IMG/VR virus record: IMGVR_UViG_3300050821_008147
Location: 1 to 56,761 of that record
Reading direction: 5' to 3' (one strand)
Source: a virus
DNA length: 56,761 nt
Shown piece after piece: positions 1 to 24,524 of this stretch. Made by a program: the position numbers and the translations under genes. The stretch's first letter is position 1. Every line of letters begins with the position of its first letter. Under the pieces are notes generated by a model. That model ran no database searches and was not told the origin of the DNA. It was given only the letters and a program-made list of their open reading frames with translations.

Positions 1-3000
1 GGCTGGCCCTGCGTCACACCACCGAGGGCTGAGGCAACTCGTCCCGCTGCCGATTGCACAGAGGGGAACGTGGGCTGCGGGTTCGGCGGTCCACCGAGAA
101 GATCGTCCAGTTCGTTGCCGCCCGATGCGGCTGAAGCCGTGCCTCCTCCGCCCTGCCCCAAGCCCGTAATCGGCGAGCCGTTCGCCGAGGCCCAGCGTAC
201 CCATAGCGCGTTTGATGAAGTCGATCCGTCGACCTTGCCCGTCGCACTGCCGAGGTCCACGCCGAAGAGCTTGCCGAGGGCGCCCAGACCCCCTTGGAGT
301 TGACTCTTGATCTGGGAATCGAGCAGATTCTTCCCGATGCCTTCGAACGTGCCAGCAAACGCATTGATCGCATCTTTCCGCTTGAACCGATTCGGCGCCG
401 TGATCAGCTGCGTCAGGTTATCGGAGAGCTTGTTGAACATCTCGTTCATGGTGTCGAAGATGGTCGCCGCGGCCGTCTTTGCGCTCTCTTGCATCTTGAG
501 GAAAAAGGCCGTAACGCCGTCCCCGAGCGAACCCTCTTTCAAGAGCAGTTCGACGGTCGCATCCGTGGCCTTATTGAATTCCTCCTGTTGCTTGGCCGCG
601 ATGCCTAACTCTTGCGCATAGGTGAGCGTCCCACCCTGGAGTTCCTTCAGTGCTTCGACGGCATGGTTCAGGCTATCGGCGCTGCGCTGGTATTCGTCTT
701 CGGGCGAAAGCAGGGACCTGGCTGCCTCGGCGTCATTCGCGGCCCACTCGGCTTTCGTCAGTTCGACGAGCGCGTCCTTTTGCCTGAGCAGAGCCTGGCG
801 CGTTGAATCGTCAGGGGCTTCAGCGATGTTCTGATCGAGCTTGTACGTCTTGCTCGCGAGTGCGGCCTGGCGCTGCACATCGATCGATGCCAGGGTCGCA
901 GAGGTTACCAGTTCGCGCTCGGCCAGCTGATCGCGTAACGCATCCACTTCCTTGTTCGCAGATGCGACGATCTCGATCGACGACTTAGCGGTGAGTTCCT
1001 CGCGCAGCTTTGCGAGCTCAGGAGTCATCGTCTTGATCTGCTCGGCCGTGCGGTTGAATGTGAGGCCTAGGATCGCGTTATCGACGGCAGTGCGGCGGAT
1101 CGCGGCATCGCCCTCGAGGTTGGCCGCGGCCATTGCCCGGGTCTGCTGAATAGCCAGGTCGGCGCCGTGCTGCTGTCCGACGAGTTCTTTGCCGTATTCG
1201 ACTAGAGCCTTAGTCGATTCCTCGGTCGAAACCTTCTGGCTGATGGTCGCTTGCTGGAGTTCCGTCAGCTTTGGCTTTCCCTCGCCGATGAGCCGATTAT
1301 TCAACTCGAGGATGACGGCTTGGGCCTTTTCCGCCGCCGCAACTTCCGCAATCTTTTCTGGCGTGCCGTCGAGAACCGCCAGATACGCTTTCTGGGCTGC
1401 GATCGCCTCATCGAGCTTCCGGATTTCCTCAGCATAAGGATCCTTCTGCGGTTTGCCGAGCCCGGTCGTATCGAGTGTCGGCTTCGGTGCGCGAATAGGC
1501 GCAGGAGCAGTCCCCGAGCGTTTAGCCTCTGGATGCTCGCGTTCAAATTTGGCTTGATTGAGTGCGTCGATCGCAAATTGGGGAACGAGGCTGCCGAGGA
1601 TGCTCTTCGCAAAGGCCAGCGCCTTGCCAAATGCACTCTCGAGCGCGTTCACGATCCAGTTCGCACCGAACCAGGCGGTGAATGCCGTCCACGCGGCTCG
1701 CATACCATCGATCAGCTTTGAGAACTCGCCCTTGATCCAGGTAAGCGACTTGCCCATGACGATCCAGGCAGCACTCCAAACGTCGCGGAGCTCGTAAGTC
1801 GTGCCCTGCAGCGAGAAGGTTGCGTCCCTGAACTTATAGAGGGCCACTCCCAGTCCGATGATCGCGATCGCGGCCACACCGACCGGACCGCCTACCGTTG
1901 CCACTGCTCCGCCGAGTACATACGCCGCGGCCGATGCGATGCCCTCTTCCGATGCGAGAAGCCCGACGAATGCCGCGGTCTCTGATGCCCACGTGCCGAA
2001 CTTCGCCAGTACGGGCAAAACGCGGGTAAGTCCCAGGAGTCCGACCGTCGCACGCGTTATGCCGGCGCCGAGCTTGTCGATTCCGCCGGCAGCCAGATCG
2101 CCAGCGATCGGGATTGCAATCTTGAGCGCACCCAAGCCGACGAGGGCCTCGAGCGCGATCTTCAGACCTTGCGCGTGCTTCTCCGCGAACTGCAGAGCGT
2201 TGCCAAGTATGTTGACCGCGGTGACGACTTTCTCGCCGAACGCTTTGGCTAGGTCGGGAATATCGGCATTTTTAGCGACCTCTATCAACTTGTCGCTAAG
2301 CTCGACCATAGATGGCAAGGTCGCACCCAGGATCGCGAAGCCGACGCCGCGGAGAACCTCCTGCATGCGCATCAGGTTGTCGTGGGCTTGCGCGGCGACT
2401 TCGACGGTCGACGTGCTCAGCACCAGGCCGAATTGATGGGCCTCTTCATTGACGCGCGCCTGCTCGCTCCCATACTGATTAAGCATCGGAATCAGCGACG
2501 CGCCAGACTTGCCGAACAGTGCGACCGCGAGAGCCGTCTTCCCGGCGCCGTCCGCGGTGCCCGAGAACTTAACGGCGAGCTGTTCCATCAGCACGCCGGA
2601 ATCTTTCAGATGACCGTTAGAGTCGGTAGCTGATACGCCCAGACGGCCGAATATGTTCTGGAGTTGCGCGTTGCCATTCTGGGCCTTGAACGCAGCCTGG
2701 CTAAGCTTCACGAGTCCGATACCGAGCTTTTCGGTCTCGACTCCGCTCAGCTTTGCCGCATAGGTGAGCACGGATAGCGTCTCGGCCGTCGTGCCAGCCG
2801 ATTCAGCCATCTTGCCCATTTTGTCCGCCGCATCGATCGCCCCCTCGACCATGGCTGCGGTTCCGGTAGCGATCGCGGCTCCCATCGCGAGGCCGACGGC
2901 CGTGATTTTTTCGAGCGAGCGCTTGATGTCGTTTGCCGTCTTCGCGGACAGCTGCGACATCTTATCCATCGACTGCGAGAACGAGGCTGTATTCGCAGTC

Positions 3001-3035
3001 AAATCGATGGAAAGTGTTCCGACGACTATGCTCAT
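1..3035 (-). CDS. Tail tape measure protein, N-terminal part (runs off window start)
   Basis: This is the N-terminal ~1011 residues of the tail length tape measure protein, which sets tail length and is the scaffold for tail tube assembly. The reading frame starts at the ATG at 3035, overlapping the stop of the upstream chaperone gene in an ATGA, and stays open to position 1. Visible are an N-terminal region of alternating helices (many Ser-Gln-Met-Asp-Lys type turns), hydrophobic Ala/Gly/Val-rich segments around residues 330-400 that could be membrane-inserting, a long charged coiled-coil stretch around residues 500-780, and a Gly/Ser/Pro-rich end. Size and position after the tail tube and chaperones fit the family. 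The rest of the protein is at the other end of the window (55847-56761), as expected for a circular map opened inside this gene. Confidence 0.93.
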   Translation of the reverse strand, partial: MSIVVGTLSIDLTANTASFSQSMDKMSQLSAKTANDIKRSLEKITAVGLAMGAAIATGTAAMVEGAIDAADKMGKMAESAGTTAETLSVLTYAAKLSGVETEKLGIGLVKLSQAAFKAQNGNAQLQNIFGRLGVSATDSNGHLKDSGVLMEQLAVKFSGTADGAGKTALAVALFGKSGASLIPMLNQYGSEQARVNEEAHQFGLVLSTSTVEVAAQAHDNLMRMQEVLRGVGFAILGATLPSMVELSDKLIEVAKNADIPDLAKAFGEKVVTAVNILGNALQFAEKHAQGLKIALEALVGLGALKIAIPIAGDLAAGGIDKLGAGITRATVGLLGLTRVLPVLAKFGTWASETAAFVGLLASEEGIASAAAYVLGGAVATVGGPVGVAAIAIIGLGVALYKFRDATFSLQGTTYELRDVWSAAWIVMGKSLTWIKGEFSKLIDGMRAAWTAFTAWFGANWIVNALESAFGKALAFAKSILGSLVPQFAIDALNQAKFEREHPEAKRSGTAPAPIRAPKPTLDTTGLGKPQKDPYAEEIRKLDEAIAAQKAYLAVLDGTPEKIAEVAAAEKAQAVILELNNRLIGEGKPKLTELQQATISQKVSTEESTKALVEYGKELVGQQHGADLAIQQTRAMAAANLEGDAAIRRTAVDNAILGLTFNRTAEQIKTMTPELAKLREELTAKSSIEIVASANKEVDALRDQLAERELVTSATLASIDVQRQAALASKTYKLDQNIAEAPDDSTRQALLRQKDALVELTKAEWAANDAEAARSLLSPEDEYQRSADSLNHAVEALKELQGGTLTYAQELGIAAKQQEEFNKATDATVELLLKEGSLGDGVTAFFLKMQESAKTAAATIFDTMNEMFNKLSDNLTQLITAPNRFKRKDAINAFAGTFEGIGKNLLDSQIKSQLQGGLGALGKLFGVDLGSATGKVDGSTSSNALWVRWASANGSPITGLGQGGGGTASAASGGNELDDLLGGPPNPQPTFPSVQSAAGRVASALGGVTQGQ

Positions 3036-3340
3036 GCTGCGGTCCTCTTTTGTCGCGCAATGATCGGGGCGAATGCGGCCATGATGTCCTCGCCGGTTAT
3101 GGGTTTCTCTGGTTCAGATGGGAAGGGATGAAGCATGAACGATTCCGGGGTGATCGGGCGCTTGTGATCGCGGAAACCGTTGTTTGCAACCGTCGAAGAG
3201 ATGATGCCGACGAGGAGTTCCTCGCGTTGCATCTTCTGTTCCTGACGCAAGCGCAACGCATGAAGGTGGCGCGGCGTCATCCTGAGCCACTCTTCATCGG
3301 AAAGCCCGAGGTCATGGCGCGCTATCGCCCAGGCCTCCAT
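3032..3340 (-). CDS. Tail assembly chaperone, downstream (T-like) frame
   Basis: This 102-residue ORF lies between the tail assembly chaperone at 3358-3705 and the tape measure, the position of the T part of lambda G/GT. It contains an EEW-R-MTP type helix (around residues 16-22) often seen in such chaperones and a Gln/Arg-rich helix after it. The frame is open upstream of its ATG, back through the stop of the preceding gene. A -1 slip at 3376-3382 would fuse it to the upstream protein with no intervening stop. It is therefore likely made mostly as the C-terminal half of a fusion protein rather than from its own start. It ends in an ATGA overlap with the tape measure gene. Confidence 0.75.
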   Translation of the reverse strand: MEAWAIARHDLGLSDEEWLRMTPRHLHALRLRQEQKMQREELLVGIISSTVANNGFRDHKRPITPESFMLHPFPSEPEKPITGEDIMAAFAPIIARQKRTAA

Positions 3341-3357
3341 CCATGAGGTGAGCGGCT

Positions 3358-3705
3358 TTACGGAGCCGCTTCCGTAGGGTTTTCGAGTTCCTCTTTCTCG
3401 GGCATGGATGCTTCCCAGGCGCTCAGCAGTCCCTCTTGGATCTTGACAATATTTTTTGGATTGATCAGCAATCCCACGTTTTGAAGCGTGTATTCCGCCC
3501 CCGCATCCTTGAGGGCGAGAAAGAGCAGTGCACGAATAAGTTTTGCTGATGGGCGAAGGATGCTTACTTCGCCCGTCAGCGTGTTTAGGCCGGTCAAGTC
3601 CTCAGCTTCGATCAGCGTGTTGTGCGTGATGATGAGGGGCCAGACTTTACCATCGAGCTTGACCTCGACCCTTTTTATCAGCTTGTCAGTTGCTTTCCTT
3701 GCCAC
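3358..3705 (-). CDS. Tail assembly chaperone, upstream (G-like) frame
   Basis: This 115-residue protein is encoded directly after the tail tube gene. It is a compact alpha/beta domain with a basic N-terminus and an acidic C-terminus, as is common for G-like chaperones, which bind the tape measure during tail assembly. The last codons contain the heptamer A AAC CCT. A -1 shift there enters the frame of the next ORF (3032-3340). No sequence motif alone proves the function. Gene order (tube, chaperone, overlapping second frame, tape measure) is the main support. Confidence 0.8.
   Translation of the reverse strand: MARKATDKLIKRVEVKLDGKVWPLIITHNTLIEAEDLTGLNTLTGEVSILRPSAKLIRALLFLALKDAGAEYTLQNVGLLINPKNIVKIQEGLLSAWEASMPEKEELENPTEAAP
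3376..3382 (-). promoter_or_regulatory. Candidate -1 frameshift slippery heptamer
   Basis: On the minus strand the sequence A AAC CCT, in the zero frame of the 3358-3705 gene, matches the X XXY YYZ layout of slippery sites. The zero frame stops after only five more codons. The -1 frame stays open and reads straight into the 3032-3340 ORF. The CCC second triplet is less typical than AAA or TTT, so efficiency cannot be judged. Confidence 0.6.
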
Positions 3706-3750
3706 GAATTACTCCCTCAAATGCAGTTGGAAAAACAGGAAGGTCCCCAT

Positions 3751-4191
3751 TTAGACGACTGTCTCGGTGACGGTTCCGGTGATCTCCATGCTCAGCGAGA
3801 ACTCGTTCAACTTGCTGGGCTCAAGCGGGCCGTTCTCGTATTTGGAGACGAATCCGGTCCCGGTGCATGTATAGACCTGGGTCCCGGAATTGATGGGTGC
3901 GGTGATCTTGAATGGAAACACGTCGCGGGATTCTGCGAGCGCCAGGATGTTCAATTGGGACGAATCGCCGATGAAGTTCCCGCTGATCTCGACTGTACCC
4001 GGCTTGATCAGGCCTGGCAGTTTCTCTTCAGTTGCGTTCGGGCTGAGGAGGTGCGTTGCGTCGATCGCGGGGATGGTGGCGATCGAAGGCTTGATTGATT
4101 TCACCTCGGCCATCTGCGTATAGGAGGTCGGGCTCCCGCTTCCGGTCGAGAATGTTGCTAAATATCCAATCGTTGCTTTCGTTGTTGGCAT
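3751..4191 (-). CDS. Major tail tube protein
   Basis: This 146-residue protein forms the stacked rings of the tail tube. It begins with a short MPTTKAT-like leader and a Gly/Ser-rich loop, followed by beta-rich segments ending in an EITGTV-type strand, the pattern of tail tube proteins of TP901-1/lambda V style. It sits between the tail terminator (4276-4677) and the tail chaperones (3358-3705), the usual slot. The 45-base gap to the next gene is one of the wider gaps in this operon, fitting a protein made in high copy. Confidence 0.82.
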   Translation of the reverse strand: MPTTKATIGYLATFSTGSGSPTSYTQMAEVKSIKPSIATIPAIDATHLLSPNATEEKLPGLIKPGTVEISGNFIGDSSQLNILALAESRDVFPFKITAPINSGTQVYTCTGTGFVSKYENGPLEPSKLNEFSLSMEITGTVTETVV

Positions 4192-4275
4192 GGTGTCGCT
4201 CCTTGGTTTGTGGCGGTCAAAAGAAAACCCGCCACACGGGCGGGTGCTGTTACATCGGTGGACTCGTTACTGCGT

Positions 4276-4677
4276 CTAGCTGGAATCGGCGCAGAAGAGG
4301 TACTCGAGCATGCGGCGATAATTGCGCGCATTGTCGTCGAAGAAATCGATCTTGTTGGTGCGGAAGCACCCCTGGACGAATGTCGAATCCGCGTCCGTCA
4401 TGGTTCCGCGATAGCCATTGAGCACGGCATCGATCGCTTTGGCCAGCCGGATCGCGTCCGCGCCATTCGCGCCGTAGCAATCAATCTGGATCCGCGTCGA
4501 CCCGAGCGCGACCGGTCCCGTTAGTTCATAGTCGACCGGGTCCGAAACGATCACATAGCTCCAACTCGGAAGCGTGAAATCCTTCGGAAGCGTGCCCATG
4601 AACCCGCCACCGGCCGCGGCGATCGCCGCGACAGCTCCGTTTCCCTGCACCAATAGCGCGAGCCCTTGTTCGATCAT
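4276..4677 (-). CDS. Tail terminator / tail completion protein (DUF3168-like)
   Basis: This 133-residue protein resembles the DUF3168 family of tail terminators, which cap the tail tube and join it to the head. It has an N-terminal helix (MIEQGLALL), a conserved strand ending in a Gln-Ile-Asp-Cys-Tyr motif, and a following helix with ADAIRLAKAI, typical of the fold. It overlaps the preceding gp10-like gene by four bases (ATGA). Gene order supports the call. Confidence 0.8.
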   Translation of the reverse strand: MIEQGLALLVQGNGAVAAIAAAGGGFMGTLPKDFTLPSWSYVIVSDPVDYELTGPVALGSTRIQIDCYGANGADAIRLAKAIDAVLNGYRGTMTDADSTFVQGCFRTNKIDFFDDNARNYRRMLEYLFCADSS

Positions 4678-5111
4678 GACTTCAGCGAATCCACGCCTTC
4701 GCGCATAACCTCGGTGAACTTATCGAGTGCGGCTCCCTTTGCCTGATCGAACCCCGGCCGCATATGGGGCTGAGCGGCACCGTGAATCGATCCGAACTCG
4801 ACGAACTTGTCATAAACGCCCGGGGACTGGCTGCCGTCCTCTTTCTTGTATTCCGCCCCGATCACCGTATAGCCGGACTGTTCCTTTGCCGAGAGCTTGG
4901 TCTTCATCGTCATCGCGTCCCGGAGCTCGCCCGGCTCCCGCTGCGGAGTGCCTACCTTAGCGACCGGAGTCAGACCCTTGACGGCATCGACTAGAACCTG
5001 GCCACCAGCGATCAGGCCTTTGCGAAGTGAAGCCTTTGCGATCTTGGGACCGGCCTGGGAGAGCGCGTCCTCAACTCCCTGGAGACCTTTGACGTCGACC
5101 TTAATTTCCAT
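4674..5111 (-). CDS. HK97 gp10-like tail/neck protein
   Basis: This 145-residue protein starts MEIKVDVKGL and continues with a helix (VEDALSQAGPKIAK), then LRDAM and HMRPGF motifs. These are hallmarks of the HK97-gp10 family, whose members act at the head-tail junction or in tail completion. The C-terminal helix (FDQAKGAALDKFTEVMREG) is also typical. It overlaps the small gene upstream by 11 bases and the tail terminator downstream by 4, showing translational coupling in the operon. Confidence 0.85.
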   Translation of the reverse strand: MEIKVDVKGLQGVEDALSQAGPKIAKASLRKGLIAGGQVLVDAVKGLTPVAKVGTPQREPGELRDAMTMKTKLSAKEQSGYTVIGAEYKKEDGSQSPGVYDKFVEFGSIHGAAQPHMRPGFDQAKGAALDKFTEVMREGVDSLKS

Positions 5112-5319
5112 CGGCGTGTGTCACCTCAAGACTGATCCGGACCGTCCGATCACTGCCGGCATAAAGCTTATCCGCGAGTGCCTGCGTTTCCTTGACTGCC
5201 TTCAGGACCTCTTCGAACTCGGGCGTGATCCGGTCTTTCAGCGATTCGAAAGCCTGCGAGGATGCCCAGATTTCGTTCTCTGGGATCTCTGGGCTCAGCA
5301 TCACTTTGAATTCGGCCAT
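5101..5319 (-). CDS. Small hypothetical protein in head-tail operon
   Basis: This 72-residue protein, acidic in the middle with a Lys/Glu-rich helix, is not recognised. It shares one base with the stop of the head-closure gene upstream and overlaps the gp10-like gene by 11 bases, so it is almost certainly expressed. Position suggests a small accessory of the neck or tail, but nothing in the residues shows a function. Confidence 0.65.
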   Translation of the reverse strand: MAEFKVMLSPEIPENEIWASSQAFESLKDRITPEFEEVLKAVKETQALADKLYAGSDRTVRISLEVTHADGN

Positions 5320-5663
5320 TACTCATTGCTCCCGAGCCCCAGGCACGTGAGCACCAGGATGACGTTCCGCTCGCCCGGGTTCTCGATCGCCTGGATCACA
5401 TATTGCCCATTCAGCGATTGCACCCGCATCTTCGCCAGAATCCCGGTCTGCCAGCGAATCTTGACCGTCAGAAATAGCTGCGTCGTGTCCTGGCCCGATC
5501 GCACGACGTCGATCCCGCGAACGGGAATGATCTCGGCCCAGGTCGTGACGAATGGAACCCATTGCGTTGAGGCGCCGGAAATGTCCTGGATCGTTTGCTG
5601 CTGCAGGATGGTGACCTGGTGAACCATCTTGCCGGGGTCGATCTGTGGCCATGCTGTTCCCAC
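5319..5663 (-). CDS. Head closure / head-tail joining protein
   Basis: This 114-residue protein resembles the phage head-tail adaptor (SPP1 gp16-like) family. It has an early segment MVHQVTILQQQ, a WVPFVTTWAEIIPVRG segment (Trp-Ala-x-Ile plus an Arg-Gly turn) and a C-terminal YVIQAIENPGER strand. The W-A-x-I...R-G pattern is characteristic. It follows the gp6-like connector directly and precedes gp10, the classical order of head completion proteins. Confidence 0.85.
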   Translation of the reverse strand: MGTAWPQIDPGKMVHQVTILQQQTIQDISGASTQWVPFVTTWAEIIPVRGIDVVRSGQDTTQLFLTVKIRWQTGILAKMRVQSLNGQYVIQAIENPGERNVILVLTCLGLGSNE

Positions 5664-6374
5664 TTATCGCGCCCTCACAAGTGAACCGTACGACAGGCAC
5701 GACGTCACCGCATACGGGTATTCCTGCGTCGCGGCCGCGCCCTTCTCAAACGGCATCCGGTTGTTATACCAAGCCGAAATCAGCAGCTTCATTCCGGTCT
5801 TGATCCGGGCGCCGGAATCATTCCAGAACGGGTCCGCGTTCGAGTAACCGCTAGTGAACCGGATCAATAGCGCAGATGTTGGCCACGGGGTGAACGTTGG
5901 CCAGGTCTTGCTGTATGGCGGATAGATGCTTCCGGGCTGCTTGGAAGCGTCTACGATGTAATCGCCATTCGGTCCCTCGGTCATCACCGTGATAGCGCCA
6001 GTCGAATCCATATACTGCGCTAGGTCCACAGAGACAAGCGGTGCGCGCAACTGGACGCGGTACGACATCCAGTAATCGTAAGTCAGGTCCCATTGCTTGC
6101 GTACCAAATCCCTGTTTTGAAGAATCTCCGCTTGCTCGCGAGATGCCGAGATCATCGAGGTGATGTAATCGTCCTCTTCGGGATCGACGGGCGAGCGGGC
6201 CGGGATCTTCAGATAGGAATACATCTCCGCGTTGGTGAGCGGCTCGACGAATGTTTGTACCGGCGACTGTTGCGTTAAATTGAGGGAGCCGTAACCGTCG
6301 TAGGCGGGGTACAAAAGAATGTTCGAATAGGCTCCCCAACCAGAGCCGCCACCAGCGAAGGGTCCCCAACTCAT
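5664..6374 (-). CDS. Head-tail connector protein (gp6-like)
   Basis: This 236-residue protein has a Gly-rich N-terminus, then a core from about residue 40 (EPLTNAEMYSYLKI, DYITSMISASREQAE) matching the helical gp6/gp15-type adaptor that binds under the portal. The C-terminal helix (GMKLLISAWYNNR) is also characteristic. The gene comes directly after the sugar-modification block and overlaps the GT2 gene by ATGA, so the inserted block and the connector are translationally coupled. Confidence 0.85.
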   Translation of the reverse strand: MSWGPFAGGGSGWGAYSNILLYPAYDGYGSLNLTQQSPVQTFVEPLTNAEMYSYLKIPARSPVDPEEDDYITSMISASREQAEILQNRDLVRKQWDLTYDYWMSYRVQLRAPLVSVDLAQYMDSTGAITVMTEGPNGDYIVDASKQPGSIYPPYSKTWPTFTPWPTSALLIRFTSGYSNADPFWNDSGARIKTGMKLLISAWYNNRMPFEKGAAATQEYPYAVTSCLSYGSLVRAR

Positions 6375-7258
6375 TGAGTCACCGCCGCAGGTTCAACTAC
6401 GCCAAACAGATCAAGCCCCGCGAACCGCTCGGAGCCATGTTCCACGTGGAGCGTTCTGCACATCTCTTCCTGCCAGGGAATCGTGTCCAACTTTACGCAT
6501 GAGCGCAACTCGCTATAGGGCGCCCACCAATCCGCTGGTACCTCGGCATAGCGCCAGAGTTGCTCGAATTGCATGTTCGCAGACGGCACAAAAGCGAGAT
6601 TGTAAAGCCGATCGATGTCCTGTTTCGACTTCGATGGCCAGCGCAGGGTCTCGATCATCTTGTATGCCGCATGCTTGGCCCTTAGTCGACGCTCGCTTGC
6701 TCCCCAAAGATGCATAATCCCGCCCTGGCCCTGCGCAATTGGACGCGATTGCCGAACAATCCCTCCGCTCGGCTCGCGCTGATGAAACCGATCACCGGAC
6801 CAGCCGAGTCGCGGGTCATCCCCGAACGCCGTCGAGAACCAGCGCTGCCCCCAGATCCCGTTCCCGTGGTAGCGATCGAGGCCGCCGCGGAGGTTATACC
6901 CGGGCAGCTGCAGGATCCAGCCCTTCGGCATGCATTCGATGTGGGTGCGGATCGACCCAAGTAGATTGCCGGTCAGGACCTCGTCCGCGTCGACAATGGC
7001 GAGGTGCGTCGCGCCCAGTTGCCTGGAGAAATCGAGCATTCGCTGCCGGTGCTGCATCTCGGCCCAATCGCCATCAATGGGTTCGGCAAAGACTCTGCTC
7101 GGGAATTCGGCCATCAGGTCGAAGATGATAGCCTCTGTGCCGTCAGTGCTCGCGTGATTCAAGATCACCAGGACGTCGCACCACATCAGAGCCGCGCGCG
7201 CAGAGAGACCGAGGACCCAGTCTTCGTTGCGGCACGGCATCATTCCGATCAGGCGCAT
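6371..7258 (-). CDS. GT2-type glycosyltransferase
   Basis: This 295-residue protein has the GT-A fold signature of family 2 glycosyltransferases: an N-terminal MMPCRNE strand-loop, a second strand ending NHASTDGT (residues 34-41) and a DAD metal-binding motif (residues 90-92, in AIVDADE). A later Trp-rich region (residues 130-190) probably forms the acceptor site. It would transfer a sugar from a nucleotide sugar in the cytoplasm. It is the last gene of a block of sugar-modifying enzymes between the capsid and connector genes. The substrate cannot be read from sequence; a virion protein or a host glycan are both possible. Confidence 0.85.
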   Translation of the reverse strand: MRLIGMMPCRNEDWVLGLSARAALMWCDVLVILNHASTDGTEAIIFDLMAEFPSRVFAEPIDGDWAEMQHRQRMLDFSRQLGATHLAIVDADEVLTGNLLGSIRTHIECMPKGWILQLPGYNLRGGLDRYHGNGIWGQRWFSTAFGDDPRLGWSGDRFHQREPSGGIVRQSRPIAQGQGGIMHLWGASERRLRAKHAAYKMIETLRWPSKSKQDIDRLYNLAFVPSANMQFEQLWRYAEVPADWWAPYSELRSCVKLDTIPWQEEMCRTLHVEHGSERFAGLDLFGVVEPAAVTQ

Positions 7259-7734
7259 CAGTTCGCTCGCCGCCCGTCGAGAAATTTGTCAAATCTTTCT
7301 CGCGAATTCACTACGGCGCATGAGAAATACAGGTCAGCGCCTTCCGGGAGGATCAGCTTCCCATCGCCAGCGCGGGGGATGTGCTGCTTATAGAACTTTA
7401 TGCCGCCGTCATGGGCATTGTGCACACCTGGACGATGAACATAGACCTTGTAACCCTTGTCGCTCGGCTCAATCCGCGTCGCCGTTTCGTAGGGAACCTC
7501 GGCATCCGTTTCGGCGCACGCCTTGACTAGGGCGAAGAAGTCCTCTGGATGGAGCGAGCCGCAATAACTACATACCCTGTCGCCGTTCGATTTGAACTTC
7601 TGCCAACGGTCCAGGCCGTTTCCGGAGTTTTTAAACGGACCATTGTCGCGATCCATCCCGTTTTCCGCACGCCGCGGACAGGTCATGGGTTCGGGCAATT
7701 CGTCCACCAGGTCTTTGAACGCCGTTTCGGCCAT
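7258..7734 (-). CDS. Zinc-ribbon protein of unknown function
   Basis: This 158-residue protein carries a CSYC-x-SLHPEDFF segment (around residues 55-66) and a further Cys near residue 19, suggesting a zinc ribbon. It shares the Cys-x2-Cys-(Gly)...Pro-x-x-(E/D)-(F/E)-F layout with the protein at 10786-11367 in the same block. No enzymatic motif was recognised. The start codon shares a base with the stop of the GT-like gene upstream. A role in recognising or presenting the target of the neighbouring transferases is speculation. Confidence 0.7.
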   Translation of the reverse strand: MAETAFKDLVDELPEPMTCPRRAENGMDRDNGPFKNSGNGLDRWQKFKSNGDRVCSYCGSLHPEDFFALVKACAETDAEVPYETATRIEPSDKGYKVYVHRPGVHNAHDGGIKFYKQHIPRAGDGKLILPEGADLYFSCAVVNSRERFDKFLDGRRAN

Positions 7735-8396
7735 TAATAGTCTCCGTCCGCTAATAGGACCGTGCTGGAAATCTCGCCGCCCTTGTATGCGAATATCTCG
7801 GGCGGATCCGTGAGCTTAAGCTGCAGCTTCCACGCGATCACACTGAGGGCCGTCTGGTCGTGCCGGTGACCGAGCACTTCAGGTCCGCCGCACGGCGTTT
7901 CCGGGCAATTCCGCCATGGTCCACAGAAAGCGCGTGTTTTCGCCAACCGCACATATTCATTCAGGATTGCCCGGCCTTTCGGATGGAGCACGTTCAGCCC
8001 AAAGGCGGTCGCCACGACGTGAGGCACGCTGGCATTATCGTGCCGGCTGATCCCGAGATCCGCATAGGCCGAATCCGCGGTCCATTCCGAGTTCGTCCAG
8101 CCGTTCTTCGAAATCCAGTAACCGTCCTCGTAGATGCGGTCGAAAAGTGGGCCGAGTGGGCCAACTGGCAAGATCGACGCATCGGCCCATAACAGCAAAG
8201 AATTACCACGTGCGGCAGCATCTTGGAGCGCGAATGCCTTGAACGCATACGGGACTTCGGAATGAGGCGGCGACCCGACCGGGAGTATGTTCGTCCAGGA
8301 GAGCATAGTGGCGCCGCTCCCCAGTGCTTGGGTGAGCCGCTTCTGCCCCTTCACGTAATGGTCGCCGGTCGCCACGTTGACCACGAATCCTTTCAT
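7734..8396 (-). CDS. Glycosyltransferase-like protein
   Basis: This 220-residue protein resembles GT-A-like transferases that lack a textbook DxD but carry a hydrophobic strand followed by WADAS (residues 70-74), matching the position of the metal/nucleotide-sugar motif. Before it lies a helix (PYAFKAFALQDA), as in hexosyltransferase-like families. A C-terminal GHRHDQTALSVIAWKL segment, with H-x-x-Q-x-x-x-S, fits the acceptor side of such enzymes. It is one of four candidate glycosyltransferases in this block. Its donor and acceptor are unknown. Confidence 0.6.
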   Translation of the reverse strand: MKGFVVNVATGDHYVKGQKRLTQALGSGATMLSWTNILPVGSPPHSEVPYAFKAFALQDAAARGNSLLLWADASILPVGPLGPLFDRIYEDGYWISKNGWTNSEWTADSAYADLGISRHDNASVPHVVATAFGLNVLHPKGRAILNEYVRLAKTRAFCGPWRNCPETPCGGPEVLGHRHDQTALSVIAWKLQLKLTDPPEIFAYKGGEISSTVLLADGDY

Positions 8397-8399
8397 CGC

Positions 8400-8639
8400 C
8401 TATGCGACCTCTTCTGCTTTGCCCTGATGGACGAGATTGAAGCTTGCTGGCCCCGTTGGCACCAGCTTGTATTTCTCGCCCGGATAGGCTTTGTCTACTT
8501 CCTCGCAAACGCGGCCGAGGAGATGTTCGACCGTTTGGGGATAGAACGCGCGACCGTTTCCCGCCTCGTACACGTGGACCGTTTTGGACTTGTTGCCCGG
8601 GGCGAATACTTTAATCTTGATCTTCTTTACGCGTTTCAT
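8400..8639 (-). CDS. Small basic protein in modification block
   Basis: This 79-residue protein has a very basic start (MKRVKKIKIK). The start is taken as the ATG that overlaps the FkbM gene stop (ATGA), not the longer in-frame upstream start. A two-strand, one-helix layout can be guessed (YEAGNGRAF, EHLLGRVCEEV). No family was recognised. Tight coupling to both neighbours implies co-expression with the methyltransferase and glycosyltransferase. Confidence 0.65.
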   Translation of the reverse strand: MKRVKKIKIKVFAPGNKSKTVHVYEAGNGRAFYPQTVEHLLGRVCEEVDKAYPGEKYKLVPTGPASFNLVHQGKAEEVA

Positions 8640-9226
8640 CGCGCGAACACCACATTCTCGCTGCTCGTGTAGAGCATGCGATAACCCTTCTGGCCAGCGG
8701 AATGGATGCATTCCTCCGACCGGAAATCGTACTCGACACAGATCGCGGCCGGGCGCATCTCTGTTGCCAGGAGCGCGTGCAAGAGGTCCACGCTCGAGCC
8801 CTCGGCGTCGATGCTCACAAAGTCGAAGTCCCCAAAGCGATGCAGGATCTCGGGAATGGTGATTACGGGCACATAAAACGAACCGTAGAAGCCCCCGACG
8901 CCCTTCCAGCGCTCGTAACTTTCTTCGCTCGAGGTTGTGAGCGCATCGGACGTCGCATGAAATCGCGTGATCGATCTATCGACTGCCACGGCCCCACTCA
9001 AAAGCTGGATGCGATCCTCATTGCCGTATTCGCGCAACAGAACCAGGAGCGGCTCCGGGGACGGCTCAACCATGACGCCGGACCAGCCGCGCTCGAATAA
9101 TGCGCGCGTATTCGATAGGTTCGTGGGATGCCAGGCGCCGATATCCAGGAACCGTCCGTGCTCGCGCGCGATATTCTTGACCGCTTGCAGGATGTACTTC
9201 TCTTCGTCCCCCTGCGAATAGCTCAT
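8636..9226 (-). CDS. FkbM-family SAM methyltransferase
   Basis: This 196-residue protein has a class I SAM-binding motif FLDIGAW (residues 26-32), an acidic end of strand 2 (MVEPSPE) and a DFVSIDAEGSS segment (about residue 135), all diagnostic of the FkbM family. These enzymes methylate hydroxyl groups, often on sugars of glycans or macrolides. Presence beside glycosyltransferases suggests it caps the sugar chain built by the block. It overlaps both neighbours by four bases. Confidence 0.88.
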   Translation of the reverse strand: MSYSQGDEEKYILQAVKNIAREHGRFLDIGAWHPTNLSNTRALFERGWSGVMVEPSPEPLLVLLREYGNEDRIQLLSGAVAVDRSITRFHATSDALTTSSEESYERWKGVGGFYGSFYVPVITIPEILHRFGDFDFVSIDAEGSSVDLLHALLATEMRPAAICVEYDFRSEECIHSAGQKGYRMLYTSSENVVFAR

Positions 9227-9342
9227 AGGTAGCGCTCGATAACGAGGCCGATTAAAAGCACGATTGCGGTCGCAAGCATGAGCGAGCCCACGACCACGGC
9301 CACCGCCTCTAAGAGATCCGCAGCCCTATTCCATTTGCTCAC
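9223..9342 (-). CDS. Single-span small membrane protein
   Basis: This 39-residue protein starts at a GTG that overlaps the stop of the methyltransferase gene upstream (GTGA) and ends overlapping the FkbM gene (ATGA). After a short charged start (SKWNRAADLLEA) it has one hydrophobic helix of about 22 residues ending in a short basic tail. It may anchor the modification enzymes at the inner membrane. That idea rests on its place in the block only. Confidence 0.6.
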   Translation of the reverse strand: MSKWNRAADLLEAVAVVVGSLMLATAIVLLIGLVIERYL

Positions 9343-10076
9343 GCGCACGCCCCGAAATCGAAGTCGCTCATCGAATTCTTTACCGCTTCCCAGTTGATCC
9401 TGGGATCGCGAACGTGGTCGGGCGGAATGAAGCCCCGCGAGCAGCAAGCGACCATGTGTGGCGTCCAGTAGACCCGGCATTGAAAGCCGATCGACATCAG
9501 GTACTCGACGCCTTCGCGGACCGGGCGCCCGATGAAATCATGGAAGAGAATGACGCCGGTAGTCTCGAGATGATCGGCTGCATTCTTGGCGTCCTCGAGA
9601 GGGCATGGTGACATGTGATCGCCGTCGATTACCACGCCGGAAAACAGTTCCGAAGAATGGAGATCAGAGAAGAACTCTTTGGACGTCATGGCGTATCGAG
9701 GAATCCGCGATGCGCGCGCCCCGGCATAAAATAGATTCTCAGATGCCCGCTCACTGAACTCCGGGACCCCCAACATCGGATCGATTGCGCGGACTTCGCA
9801 GCCACCGGCGGCAACATGGGCCGACGTCCAACCCGTATGGCAGCCGATATCGATCCACTCCCCGCGCAAGTCATTCGCGATGGTATAGAGAATCGCCGCC
9901 TCATCATGAGTCCAGAAGCCGCAATTTTTATAAAGTCCCAGCAACGGATCGCCGGCGGGACGGTCCGCGAAATCGCTCAGGATGTCGTGGCCCATGCTGT
10001 GACCCATTGGGCGACAATGCACGTGCTTGAAGAACGGCTGCAGATCCGGAGCGGAAAGGTTCGAGCGGTAAATCAA
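9339..10076 (-). CDS. Class I SAM methyltransferase (Methyltransf_24-like)
   Basis: This ~245-residue protein carries WIDIGCHTG (SAM motif I, about residues 74-82), an acidic residue ending strand 2 (VRAIDP), and a VVIDGDH motif followed by a helix and VILFHDF, typical of the Methyltransf_24 group found with glycan genes. The start is taken as a TTG overlapping the preceding stop (TTGA), with GGGAGG just upstream. An in-frame GTG at 10097 is an alternative. It is likely to methylate a sugar or an amino-sugar intermediate. Confidence 0.82.
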   Translation of the reverse strand: MIYRSNLSAPDLQPFFKHVHCRPMGHSMGHDILSDFADRPAGDPLLGLYKNCGFWTHDEAAILYTIANDLRGEWIDIGCHTGWTSAHVAAGGCEVRAIDPMLGVPEFSERASENLFYAGARASRIPRYAMTSKEFFSDLHSSELFSGVVIDGDHMSPCPLEDAKNAADHLETTGVILFHDFIGRPVREGVEYLMSIGFQCRVYWTPHMVACCSRGFIPPDHVRDPRINWEAVKNSMSDFDFGACA

Positions 10077-10783
10077 GCTGCCTCCCTCGGCATGCACGGC
10101 GCAAAGTCACAGCGCTTCAATCGCATATAAATCGCCTGCATCTCCGCCCAGTGAGTAGAACTGTTCCACTTCACCAGGTGGGCCGGCGGGTTCACCCGGT
10201 TGACGTCCAGGCTTTCGTTCTTCCGCATGAAGTGCCGATGCAAATGGATCAGGTCCCGGCGTTGCCAGAAAACTCCGCAGCGCTTCGCCGTATCCATCAG
10301 GCATTGATCCACGAACATATGCGTGAATTCAGGCCAAAGCGGCCCCGCGCCACCGTTGGCGCGCTCGCACCATTCGCGGCCCATCCAGGGGCTGCCGGCT
10401 ATCCGGTCGATGGACCCGTCCGCCCAACGGTCTCCGGTTGGCTGCATCACCCCGAAAGTTCCGCCAAAATGCTCCTCGCACTCTTTGACGATGCTGTCCG
10501 GGTCATGCGCGCGATCTGGCTCTGTATCGTCACCGCCTGTAACAATGAATCGGCACTCCGGGTCGAATTCCAGTACCTTGCCAGCGAGCGCGTTCACCGC
10601 ATTTGCATAACCGGGGTATTTGCCGGTGAGATAGAAGTCGCAGACGGGTTCGCCGGTGTAGAGAACATCGGGTCCTGTGTCACGCCAGACGGCGACGCCG
10701 TAGCCCTTTTCCTTCCATTTACGCAGAACGACGTTCGCCTCTTCCGCTGGTCTTGCCGAAGGGATCGCAAACCAAGCCTTCAT
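10073..10783 (-). CDS. Glycosyltransferase-like protein (GT-A type)
   Basis: This 236-residue protein has an N-terminal nucleotide-sugar-type strand (MKAWFAIPSARP), a helix, then FIVTGGDDTEPD (residues 79-90), where GGDD sits where GT-A enzymes hold their DxD. The C-terminal half has an FTHMFVDQCLMD segment and H-L-H-R-H residues, resembling the acceptor half of GT2-like proteins. It is one of four candidate glycosyltransferases in the 6.4-12.0 kb block and is translationally coupled to the methyltransferase downstream. Confidence 0.68.
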   Translation of the reverse strand: MKAWFAIPSARPAEEANVVLRKWKEKGYGVAVWRDTGPDVLYTGEPVCDFYLTGKYPGYANAVNALAGKVLEFDPECRFIVTGGDDTEPDRAHDPDSIVKECEEHFGGTFGVMQPTGDRWADGSIDRIAGSPWMGREWCERANGGAGPLWPEFTHMFVDQCLMDTAKRCGVFWQRRDLIHLHRHFMRKNESLDVNRVNPPAHLVKWNSSTHWAEMQAIYMRLKRCDFAPCMPREAA

Positions 10784-10785
10784 GG

Positions 10786-11367
10786 TCAGCTCCCCACTCG
10801 CTCAGTAGTGCCTTCCCAGACAAACTCTTCAAGCGGCCTGTGAGTCCCGCAATGAGAACAGAATGTCCCGCTATAGAATCCGGGGTCTCGCGCGTAAGTT
10901 TCGGCGATAACCAGCGCCATGCTGGTTCTACTTCCGCATCCCTTTTCGCCCGGCTTCACCAGAACGATCCCGTTCATTTTCGGGTCAAGCCCGACGTGGA
11001 TGTAGCTTCGCCGAACGGGGCGAACGAATCCCTTCGCGCGCTCCTCTGCGTCGAGCACCACATAATCCTTCTGTTGCCCGGTAGCAGGGTTGATTTCTCG
11101 ATGGTCTTCGGTGACTGGCGAGCCATCGACCAGAACGCGCGCGCTGCGGTCTACTTCCTCCTCAACGGTGCAGTCGATTTGAGAACCGCAGATTCCACAC
11201 TTGCCGATCATGCTGTCTGTCCCGCGGGGAGAGGCTACGTAGAAGGCGGACGTGCCGTCCATGAGCGCGGCCCAGGCCTTGGCCCACTCCATTGCCATCC
11301 CGTAGACCTGGATCGTTTGCTTATGGCCTTCTGTGCAGGTTGCCGTCACGCTGATTGTCTTGTTCAT
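10786..11367 (-). CDS. Zinc-ribbon protein, modification block
   Basis: This 193-residue protein contains C-x2-C (KCGICGS, about residues 57-60) and a second CSHCGTHRPLEEF near the C-terminus, giving two potential zinc sites. The second has the same layout as the protein at 7258-7734. The start overlaps the upstream GT2 stop. No catalytic motif was seen. Two related zinc-ribbon proteins within one glycosylation block suggest a shared structural or adaptor role, which is an inference. Confidence 0.7.
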   Translation of the reverse strand: MNKTISVTATCTEGHKQTIQVYGMAMEWAKAWAALMDGTSAFYVASPRGTDSMIGKCGICGSQIDCTVEEEVDRSARVLVDGSPVTEDHREINPATGQQKDYVVLDAEERAKGFVRPVRRSYIHVGLDPKMNGIVLVKPGEKGCGSRTSMALVIAETYARDPGFYSGTFCSHCGTHRPLEEFVWEGTTERVGS

Positions 11368-11957
11368 AACTTCTTCCAGTTATCCGCGATCATGCGCGGA
11401 CTCGTGTTGCCCGGGTGAATCGTTGCGTACATCAATTCGCCGGCGTCTTCCGAGACGATCTGTTTCGCATGCTGTGCCGCCCACACCATCGTGTTGTCTT
11501 CGCCGATGTTCGCGAGACTGAACCTGTTCGCCTGCCACCATTCGCGCCGGTAACAGAGTGAGGTCCCGAGCGCGTAATTCTTGGACCCCAGATACTGCCA
11601 CCAGTTCGACCCATCCGTGAACCGCATCGAGTGGAAGCCCGCGACCGATAGCCCGCTTTCATTGAGCATCTCGACCTGATGAGCAATTCGACCAGGTGCA
11701 GAATAGTCGTCATCGTCCCAATGACAGATGACATCGCCCAGCGCACGCTCGCATCCAAAGTTCCGCTTCTCGCCAATTTTCCGTTGCTCGGCCAGGTGAA
11801 CGAGCCGGATGCGATCGTCAGCGGGAACCAGATCCTGAACGTCTTCCCCGTCCGCGAGGATCAGTAGTTCGGTCCGACGATAGGTCTGCGACAGGAAACA
11901 TTCGATCGCTTTCGGAAGCCACGTTCTCCTGTTTCGCGTCAGGCATAGTGCGGTCAC
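11364..11957 (-). CDS. Short GT2-type glycosyltransferase
   Basis: This 197-residue protein opens immediately with the family 2 core (CLTRNRRTWLPKAIECFLSQTY) and contains HWDDDDYSAPGR (residues 79-90), the metal-binding DxD region, followed by a NIGEDNTMVW acceptor-side motif. At under 200 residues it is shorter than most GT2 enzymes. Because the fold starts at its first residues, the start is firm, and this forces a 140-base out-of-frame overlap with the 11818-12156 gene. Confidence 0.85.
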   Translation of the reverse strand: MTALCLTRNRRTWLPKAIECFLSQTYRRTELLILADGEDVQDLVPADDRIRLVHLAEQRKIGEKRNFGCERALGDVICHWDDDDYSAPGRIAHQVEMLNESGLSVAGFHSMRFTDGSNWWQYLGSKNYALGTSLCYRREWWQANRFSLANIGEDNTMVWAAQHAKQIVSEDAGELMYATIHPGNTSPRMIADNWKKL

Positions 11958-12156
11958 GAAACGGTTCCCGCGGGCCCACCTCGGGAGCTTCCGGCTTGAT
12001 GATCTTGGTTTCGTATTCGACCTTGGGCGGGAGCGCGTTCCGCACCAGGCCGGATTTCAGAAGCTGTTGCGCGATCTCGTCACGGCATTCGAATTCCTGA
12101 TCGGGAACCACGGTCCCGTACTCACCGCGGAGCGCCCGGTTTGCGATTACCTTCAT
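11818..12156 (-). CDS. Hypothetical protein after capsid gene, long C-terminal overlap
   Basis: This 112-residue protein begins MKVIANRALRGEYGTVVPDQEF, a beta-rich start frequently seen in small proteins near phage capsid genes, followed by a helix (EIAQQLLKSGLVRNAL). The last ~45 residues, rich in Asp, Arg, Ser and Gly, overlap the GT2 gene in another frame and look unstructured. The N-terminal part is convincing. The C-terminal tail may be functional or just open by chance. Confidence 0.62.
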   Translation of the reverse strand: MKVIANRALRGEYGTVVPDQEFECRDEIAQQLLKSGLVRNALPPKVEYETKIIKPEAPEVGPREPFRDRTMPDAKQENVASESDRMFPVADLSSDRTTDPRGRGRRSGSGSR

Positions 12157-12261: not shown

Positions 12262-13482
12262 TTAGGGAGAGGTGTTGAACGAGCCCTGGACGAAACTGAG
12301 CGGCCTTTTGACAACCATTGCGAGCCGTTTCTCCGCTCTTATTGTGACCAAGTTCCTTCTAAAATTGTCGGAATCTTCAGTCGATATTTCGACCGCCATC
12401 TCCATGCGATCCCTGATCTCAGCAGCCACCGGCGAACCGGAGCCAACCAAGAACGTTCCTGCCGCCTGCGATGTGGTCGGGACTACGTCGAGGCCAAAAA
12501 TGTTAGGCCTGACGTAAGCTTGTGGATCGCCGAGGATATACCGGCCGAACCCATCCTTAGTGAGACGAATCTTCCACCAGTCGGTGGGATTCATCACGAC
12601 AAAGGTTGGGTCGATTTCCTTGGCGATGTTGATCTGTTCAATCGCGGTCCCCACTATATCGATGCGATTCCAGCCCGCTGCTGCGGAGGGCAATAGCGCA
12701 GTGTTGAAGGATGTGGCCTGCGTGCCGACACCGTGCAGGTCTTCATTCACATTGTCACCCGACAAAAGTTGCAGCTCTTCCTCGAGGTTGACATAGTAGG
12801 GAAGTGATGTCTCGATGAAACTCATCAACTCTACAAAATCGTCGAGCACCTGGCGGGTGGCCAAAATGAAAGTGGCCAGGAGCTTGATCCTTTCGCTGAG
12901 GGCCGTGAAGGTCAGTTGGTTTTCCGGCTTGGTGCTCGCTTCGGCAACCGGCGAAGCAATCGACAGGGGCTGGTTAACCCTGACGAAATCGACGAGTGCC
13001 ATCGTGGTTGGCCGCTGACTGAACAGGTCGCGAATCCGGAGGACCTGACGCGCTTCCGCGACGATTCCCGGAATGCGGCCGATTGGCAAGACACCCGTGG
13101 TCTGGGTGCCTACTGGCGCCAGTGGATCGCCGCCAGGGCCGGTCCCAGAAGTGACCGCAGTGATGATCGACTTACGATTCATCAACTCCATCATGTCGTT
13201 GCCCTTGATGGTTACGAAGGCATGGCCTTTCTTGTCTCTCAAAAGACGCTGGACGCCTTCGCTCTCCTGGAAGGTCTTGACTAGGGTCGAACCTTGGCCC
13301 TGATCGGCAACCATCCTCGTTGCCAGCTTTACGTCCATCGCATCAACCTGCGTCTGGAGCTTAGTGATGGAGGCTTTGGTTTCTTCGCGCATGGTGCCGT
13401 TGAGCTTCTGCTCTTCGGTAGCCTTGTCGAAGTGAGTCTTAAGCTCGGCCTGCAGCGCAGTGAGCTGGTCTTTGAGTTCCAT
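12262..13482 (-). CDS. Major capsid protein, HK97 fold
   Basis: This 406-residue protein has an N-terminal coiled-coil delta/scaffold region (about residues 1-60, Lys/Glu/Gln-rich), followed by the HK97-type body: a TGVLPIGRIPGIV loop, FVRVNQP strand, EELQLLSGDN segment and MNPTDWWKIRL helix region, ending in a strand (RLAMVVKRPLSFVQG). These are strong family signatures. It lies after the prohead protease, which should remove the delta region during maturation. Confidence 0.93.
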   Translation of the reverse strand: MELKDQLTALQAELKTHFDKATEEQKLNGTMREETKASITKLQTQVDAMDVKLATRMVADQGQGSTLVKTFQESEGVQRLLRDKKGHAFVTIKGNDMMELMNRKSIITAVTSGTGPGGDPLAPVGTQTTGVLPIGRIPGIVAEARQVLRIRDLFSQRPTTMALVDFVRVNQPLSIASPVAEASTKPENQLTFTALSERIKLLATFILATRQVLDDFVELMSFIETSLPYYVNLEEELQLLSGDNVNEDLHGVGTQATSFNTALLPSAAAGWNRIDIVGTAIEQINIAKEIDPTFVVMNPTDWWKIRLTKDGFGRYILGDPQAYVRPNIFGLDVVPTTSQAAGTFLVGSGSPVAAEIRDRMEMAVEISTEDSDNFRRNLVTIRAEKRLAMVVKRPLSFVQGSFNTSP

Positions 13483-23414: not shown

Positions 23415-24524
23415 GTGTCCGACTTGAAAGATATTGTTCGCGACACTCCCCCGAAGCACACACGCAACCATGTAAGATGTCCGATTTGCGGCGTGCACGG
23501 GAAGCCCTTGAGTGACATTGTCGTTCGTTCAATGCCCGCAGATGAGGCATTGGCTGCCTGGTTTAAGCAACACCGGCAATACATCGCCGGAGGGACTCCG
23601 AGAACCTACCTGCAATATGTGAAGGTTCTCACGGAGTTTTTCCAACAGATGCCCTTGAAGACCATCGGCATTGGCAATATCCGCGCCTTTCAGGACTGGC
23701 GCAAGCAGAAGTGCGTAGCGTCGCGAGTCAATGCCGAACTATCCGCCCTGCAGATGTGCATGAAAGAGGCTGATCTCTGGGATAAGCGCATCGCCCCGCT
23801 ATACCGGCCATTACCCGTACCTAAAACCAAGGTGCGGCAAAACATGAGCGAGGACGAGGAACGCCGCCTATTGGCGGTGGCTTTCGATAAGCCTCGGCGC
23901 CGACTGGCGGGCCACTGCCTGATCATCATGGCGAACACGAGCATGGGCTTCGGCGAGCTCCGCCACCTGCGGAGGCGGGATGTGTTCCTGAACGAGGACC
24001 CGCCATTTGTCGAGGTGAATGGAGGCGCAAAGAATGACTATAGGCTGAGGTCTATCCCGCTAAATTTCTTGGCGCTGAGGTCCGTACGGTGGATCGTGAA
24101 GCGATGGCAGCAGCTTGGCGGGAATGGCGAAGATCAATACATCCTTCCGCACCACGCCAGGCGCACACTCGAGGAAAAGACCGAACGCGGCCACGTCGGG
24201 GCAGGCCCCATTTTCACTGAACCGATGGGCCACATCTACCGAGCGGCTCGTGGAATCCTGCACGATGCCGGCCTTGATCATCTTGATCCCTACGATATGC
24301 GCTCACACTTCATCACCAAGATCCTCTCCGATCCCAACGTTTCCGACCAGATGGGTAACGAACTCTTCGGGCACGCGAGCAAAGCGATGAGGCGGCGCTA
24401 TTCAAAGCAGCGTATGGAATTAAAAAAGGTCCATGTCGATGCGATGTGCAAAAAGCAGGTCAAATCTGAGGGCGAAACGCATAAACTAGCCGTCTTTCCT
24501 GGGGGAAAGCGCGTTCTAAAATAA
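23415..24524 (+). CDS. int: Tyrosine-type integrase
   Basis: This 369-residue protein integrates the phage into the host chromosome. It has a CPIC-type Cys pair near residues 22-25, an SAM-like core-binding domain (about 45-125) and a catalytic domain. Seen are K206, Y293-D-M-R296 (in place of the usual HxxR), GH at 319-320 and the nucleophile Y329. At the first catalytic Arg position (TGxR...E in most members) the sequence is T175-S-M-G178-F-G-E, so Arg is replaced by Gly. Start is GTG at 23415. It faces the HTH regulator downstream. Confidence 0.9.
   Translation: MSDLKDIVRDTPPKHTRNHVRCPICGVHGKPLSDIVVRSMPADEALAAWFKQHRQYIAGGTPRTYLQYVKVLTEFFQQMPLKTIGIGNIRAFQDWRKQKCVASRVNAELSALQMCMKEADLWDKRIAPLYRPLPVPKTKVRQNMSEDEERRLLAVAFDKPRRRLAGHCLIIMANTSMGFGELRHLRRRDVFLNEDPPFVEVNGGAKNDYRLRSIPLNFLALRSVRWIVKRWQQLGGNGEDQYILPHHARRTLEEKTERGHVGAGPIFTEPMGHIYRAARGILHDAGLDHLDPYDMRSHFITKILSDPNVSDQMGNELFGHASKAMRRRYSKQRMELKKVHVDAMCKKQVKSEGETHKLAVFPGGKRVLK

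Follow-up and report, generated by a model that had tools for sequence, protein, structure and literature searches.

A small number of cultured phages have been shown to have glycosylated virions. In mycobacteriophages, capsid and tail-tube proteins are reported to bear glycans at their C-terminal ends, with phage glycosyltransferases implicated, according to PMC12619734, which cites Freeman 2023. In the Corndog-type (cluster O) mycobacteriophages, the stretch between the portal and protease genes encodes an O-methyltransferase and glycosyltransferases (PMC4351075), and in the relatives Firecracker and Dylan we read this cassette as an O-methyltransferase, a GT2-like protein, a GT25-like protein, and one protein without assignment. 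In the chlorovirus PBCV-1, the glycosyltransferase-glycosyltransferase-methyltransferase A064R, together with A061L, caps the capsid glycan with a methylated sugar (PMC9614988). Virion glycosylation by phage enzymes is already known, as is a head-operon cassette of glycosyltransferases and methyltransferases in mycobacteriophages; an earlier note on the DNA described here, which knew of no phage with this gene set in this place, is right about the precise combination of genes, though cassettes of this kind have been described.

The window analysed is the whole stretch of 56,761 nucleotides of IMG/VR record IMGVR_UViG_3300050821_008147, from an uncultured soil phage. At 6371-11957 on the minus strand its HK97-type head operon contains a block of ten coupled genes, bounded by the major capsid protein gene upstream and the first head-tail adaptor gene downstream. 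By PHROG assignment the upstream flank encodes TerS, TerL, portal, protease, major capsid protein and a small protein, and the downstream flank the head-tail adaptor Ad1, the head closure protein Hc1, a neck protein and the major tail protein. The earlier note had placed such a block between capsid and connector genes, and both its position and its open reading frames are as claimed. The cassette and its immediate neighbours are as follows.

5664..6374, minus strand: head-tail adaptor Ad1, the downstream flank (phrog_40 / phrog_442)
6371..7258, minus strand: GT2b, a GT2_4-like glycosyltransferase and the last cassette gene (Pfam PF13704 1.4e-4, below the curated cut-off)
7258..7734, minus strand: ZnB, a small protein with one CxxC and a putative passenger (no family in Pfam, PHROGs or NCBIfam)
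7734..8396, minus strand: U220, a predicted GT-A-fold glycosyltransferase without a Pfam family (AlphaFold pLDDT 97.8, Foldseek)
8400..8639, minus strand: small basic protein (open reading frame; ATG in an ATGA overlap)
8636..9226, minus strand: FkbM-family methyltransferase (TIGR01444 5e-11, PF05050 1.7e-8)
9223..9342, minus strand: single-span membrane peptide (hydropathy maximum 2.76; GTG start in a GTGA overlap)
9339..10076, minus strand: MT24, a SAM methyltransferase of the sugar O-methyltransferase type (Pfam Methyltransf_24 5e-7, above cut-off)
10073..10783, minus strand: U236, a predicted GT-A-fold glycosyltransferase without a Pfam family (AlphaFold pLDDT 96.4, Foldseek)
10786..11367, minus strand: ZnA, a Cys-rich putative zinc protein and putative passenger (no family in Pfam, PHROGs or NCBIfam)
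11364..11957, minus strand: GT2a, a family-2 glycosyltransferase and the anchor gene of the cassette (Pfam Glycos_transf_2 2e-16)
11818..12156, minus strand: sm112, a small gene between the capsid gene and GT2a, overlapping GT2a (phrog_2616)
12262..13482, minus strand: major capsid protein, the candidate acceptor (PHROG major head protein 2.5e-51; C-terminus ...GSFNTSP)

All ten cassette genes lie on the minus strand, and neighbours are joined by short overlaps or by gaps of 2-3 nt. Read from the DNA, the junctions GT2a/ZnA, membrane peptide/FkbM, FkbM/basic protein and GT2b/Ad1 are ATGA, U236/MT24 is TTGA (MT24 starts at the TTG), MT24/membrane peptide is GTGA, U220/ZnB is TAATG and ZnB/GT2b is TGATG, while ZnA/U236 and basic protein/U220 are separated by 2-3 nt; the tight start-stop coupling claimed previously is thus found at most junctions. 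GT2a starts ∼140 nt inside the small post-capsid gene, in another frame (overlap 11818-11957), and the start-to-start spacing of 199-202 nt between these two genes is kept in most relatives. Judged from sequence, the overlapping junctions and the position in the head operon fit co-expression of the cassette with the virion genes.

Structure prediction and profile searches, the checks proposed in the earlier note, leave all four of its glycosyltransferase calls standing, two by Pfam (GT2a and, below the cut-off, GT2b) and two by predicted GT-A fold. GT2a is a GT2 enzyme by both its profile and its catalytic motifs, with acidic residues (DDD, ED) that are invariant in its relatives. Neither U236 nor U220 has a convincing family match in Pfam, PHROGs or NCBIfam, their relatives (68 and 54, respectively) likewise lack a convincing Pfam match, and matches of the two to PDB sequence profiles were at chance level and were rejected. 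AlphaFold models, built with alignments of viral relatives, match PDB structures that are almost exclusively GT-A glycosyltransferases, with low E-values: the matches for U236, which has a conserved GDD motif, include b4GalT7 (beta-1,4-galactosyltransferase 7), chondroitin polymerase and POMGnT1 (best E 3.6e-5), and those for U220 include GT6 enzymes, collagen galactosyltransferase and the PBCV-1 capsid glycosyltransferase A064R (best E 5.1e-6). As the TM-scores to GT-A structures are moderate (0.4-0.6), these models settle the predicted fold of U236 and U220, but not their donor or acceptor specificity.

Both methyltransferases named earlier are confirmed, the FkbM protein with scores above the curated cut-offs for TIGR01444 (43.2 vs 37.7) and PF05050 (35.2 vs 22.7), and the second SAM methyltransferase through Methyltransf_24. 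The membrane peptide does contain one span-like helix by hydropathy; homolog searches with this peptide and with the small basic protein gave no match. ZnA and ZnB had been described as two related zinc proteins, although their similarity is limited to 14 residues around the CxxC (E 0.04 in a single comparison), and we reject kinship beyond that stretch. The C-terminal part of ZnA (residues 72-193) is common across viral contigs. One ZnA relative is gp16 of the haloarchaeal virus HFTV1, encoded at locus L249 (HFTV1 2816-11073) between portal and protease in a neighbourhood with several small zinc-finger genes.

A search of viral metagenomes for the same gene order, also suggested earlier, shows that dozens of IMG/VR contigs share, in near-fixed order, a backbone of GT2a-U236-(MT24)-FkbM/U220-GT2b. 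We found 39 viral loci with the capsid protein as query, 78 with a U236 profile and 48 with a U220 profile, and the U236 and U220 loci extend far beyond this capsid family. Among non-redundant loci, which are nonetheless not independent events, GT2b is preceded by U236 in 66 of 66, by FkbM in 59 of 59, by U220 in 62 of 62 and by GT2a in 64 of 65; the GT2b and FkbM labels in remote loci denote the best profile rather than proven orthology. GT2a precedes U236 in 60 loci and follows it in 11, many of the latter in a remote group (L190-L199) in which a U236-like gene is followed by a GT2a-like gene. The cassette genes share one strand in every locus, and pairwise tblastn agrees with the profile-based order.

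In the closer capsid-family loci GT2a lies directly behind the capsid gene and the small gene, and the content from there to Ad1 varies. This cargo ranges from nothing (L021, L302 and L305) to ∼6-7 kb (L292 and L293), the full range being 0 to ∼7 kb, and where sampled it includes GT2 enzymes, a TOD1/MUCI70 glycosyltransferase, several methyltransferase families, a DegT aminotransferase and a YdjC deacetylase. Cassettes of other phages also carry a GDP-mannose 4,6-dehydratase and a GFO/IDH oxidoreductase. Such variation, together with the passenger-like appearance of the ZnA, ZnB, membrane peptide and basic protein genes, might be taken to indicate a moron hotspot of unrelated cargo with no joint function, but the backbone order is kept in unrelated phages and the identifiable cargo consists almost entirely of sugar enzymes, and we find this reading hardly plausible. 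Variable sugar-enzyme cargo behind GT2a is the pattern expected from swapping of glycan structures, and cassettes reduced to GT2a are expected if GT2a is the starter enzyme. The segment behind GT2a is probably a swap site where transferases and sugar-modifying enzymes are traded between phages, in which case related phages would bear different glycans on their particles.

The cassette occupies at least five slots of the packaging and head-to-tail operon. The slot between the capsid gene or sm112 and Ad1 is used in 32 loci, and others lie between Ad1 and Hc1, between Hc1 and p133, the connector gene that follows it, and ahead of the tail-tube gene. In L168 and L214 the cassette lies between TerL and portal genes of families unrelated to those of this phage, and in phages with other terminases it lies between TerL and protease (L180), behind TerL (L144 and L161) or before TerL (L131). 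When GT2a alone is the query, the 80 best viral loci all lie inside head operons. One locus, L283, has portal, protease and capsid genes broken across several frames, which suggests frameshift errors or decay.

Because this block recurs, with its gene order almost unchanged, amid the virion genes of numerous uncultured viruses that are unrelated to one another, a methylated sugar chain on the particle is its most likely product, and we consider a role as a virion-glycosylation cassette probable. GT2a, produced together with the capsid protein, would most likely start a glycan on a virion protein, which U236, U220 and GT2b would extend with further sugars; FkbM and MT24 would O-methylate the added sugars, and the small zinc, basic and membrane proteins would be passengers. 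Such a soluble assembly line would modify the virion protein during its synthesis. The earlier idea of a methylated-glycan cassette is strongly supported by the enzyme families, the folds, the conserved order and the virion-operon slots, while a virion protein as acceptor and O-methylation of the glycan as the chemistry are what we infer from them.

FkbM and GT2 enzymes are frequent in surface polysaccharide clusters. The cassette might accordingly alter the host surface late in infection or in a lysogen, by receptor masking or superinfection exclusion in the manner of O-antigen conversion, and the phage does encode an integrase-like protein. However, by hydropathy the core cassette transferases have no clear membrane spans (GT2b has a borderline hydrophobic stretch), neither Pfam nor hydropathy identifies a multi-span flippase or membrane glucosyltransferase (the hallmark of Gtr modules) among the cassette proteins, a polymerase is likewise lacking, and every slot seen is in a virion operon. 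Moreover, the phage has a separate membrane glycosyltransferase gene that suits this role better. The earlier note had left virion proteins and the host surface as alternatives; the soluble transferases, the lack of flippase and polymerase, and the location favour the virion, and we regard action on the host surface as unlikely. The separate gene (window 45526-46686, plus strand; GT87, Pfam 7e-15) adjoins a large tail gene on the opposite strand and is likely a host-surface or lysogenic-conversion gene.

Phage glycosyltransferases that modify DNA are known, as cited in PMC12619734, and the cassette transferases could in principle glycosylate bases of hypermodified phage DNA. We think this very unlikely, as none of ten further window proteins scanned is a base-hypermodification enzyme, the two sugar-type methyltransferases and the amino-sugar and sugar-nucleotide enzymes of related cassettes fit glycoconjugates better, and the genes lie in the head operon.

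If virion glycosylation is the function, the acceptor could be a protein of the tail or one that binds the receptor, and not the capsid, since the cassette or a second GT2a copy adjoins tail-side genes in L145, L146, L156, L297, L298 and L315. This variant is the less probable one, given that the slot immediately after the capsid gene dominates, with the capsid gene or sm112 as the upstream neighbour of GT2a in 74 of the 80 best loci. In L297, L298 and L315 the two GT2a copies occupy the capsid slot and a position behind Hc1, as if serving two acceptors.

Capsid proteins with a cassette behind them have [STNQA]SP within the last 14 residues in 41 of 45 cases, compared with 0 of 49 for those lacking a cassette, although the tree supplies only about one informative independent contrast for this association, namely a clade from which both have disappeared. 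The same SP tail is seen at integrase-linked capsid-protease loci with no detected glycosyltransferase. Given the reports of C-terminal glycans on the capsid and tail tube of mycobacteriophages, the SP tail is a good lead, albeit insufficient as evidence, and the choice of the major capsid protein's Ser/Thr-Pro tail as acceptor is speculative. In L089, L025, L078, L080, L082-L084, L088 and L099, mostly in Acidobacteriota chromosomes, the capsid gene is followed by the protease gene, the reverse of the phage order; portal and terminase genes were not detected at these loci, and L089 and L025 have integrases. These loci are possibly capsid-carrying satellites whose capsid tails retain the SP motif.

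The nearest prophages in a genome scan with the capsid profile are in Acidobacteriota (Edaphobacter, Granulicella, Acidobacteriaceae KBS 89 and 96, and Sulfopaludibacter), and genomes of the class of KBS 96 contain additional GT2a prophage loci. In the KBS 96 locus (L081) the GT2a reading begins a few residues further in than it does in relatives. Among 396 Acidobacteriota genomes the sole strong match to U236 is the KBS 96 prophage, and a search without positive control gave no match in 399 genomes from the phylum to which Arsenicitalea belongs; for the genomes scanned we reject U236 as an ordinary bacterial gene. A tyrosine-integrase-like gene (window 23415-24524, plus strand; Pfam 7e-6, slightly under cut-off) points to a probably temperate lifestyle. 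With the entire head region as Megablast query no phage record matched, and the window has no close DNA relative among isolated phages. By tblastn against ∼50,000 phage records, U236, U220, FkbM and MT24 have no match, GT2a has one weak match to a short Enterococcus-labelled record, and GT2b matches Prochlorococcus phages at 21%.

We tentatively propose that a collinear virion-glycan assembly line may move as one module among phages of Acidobacteriota and other environmental bacteria whose packaging and head genes are unrelated, entering virion-operon slots only, with GT2a as its fixed starter and a swap site behind GT2a that lets the particle glycan change. Such exchange, if true, would resemble serotype switching, but of the virus particle. 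The cassette suggests that virion glycosylation is widespread and exchangeable among uncultured soil phages, a trait overlooked because two of the enzymes fall outside all described families and the phage records searched do not contain the cassette. It offers a marker gene order for finding more such loci, new glycosyltransferase families, and a direct test of the role of sugar coats in phages.

The parallels to the systems introduced above are partial. Phage-encoded sugar transfer is shared with the Gtr O-antigen conversion modules, although their membrane GtrA/GtrB/Gtr set is missing from the cassette. PBCV-1 A064R and A061L likewise combine GT-A transferases and O-methyltransferases, and domain 1 of A064R is among the structural matches of U220, but that system belongs to a eukaryotic giant virus, acts on N-glycans and has fused domains. 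Mycobacteriophage virion glycosylation is also linked to phage-encoded glycosyltransferases, but with other enzymes in other hosts, and it is demonstrated experimentally where ours is deduced from genes. The Corndog-type cassette likewise couples glycosyltransferases to a Methyltransf_24-type methyltransferase inside a head operon, whereas it occupies another slot, lacks FkbM and the U236 and U220 families, and has an actinobacterial host; Firecracker gp33-gp36 gave no significant match to our cassette profiles or proteins, and homology between the two cassettes is rejected. What is new here is the shared collinear backbone that recurs in unrelated head operons.
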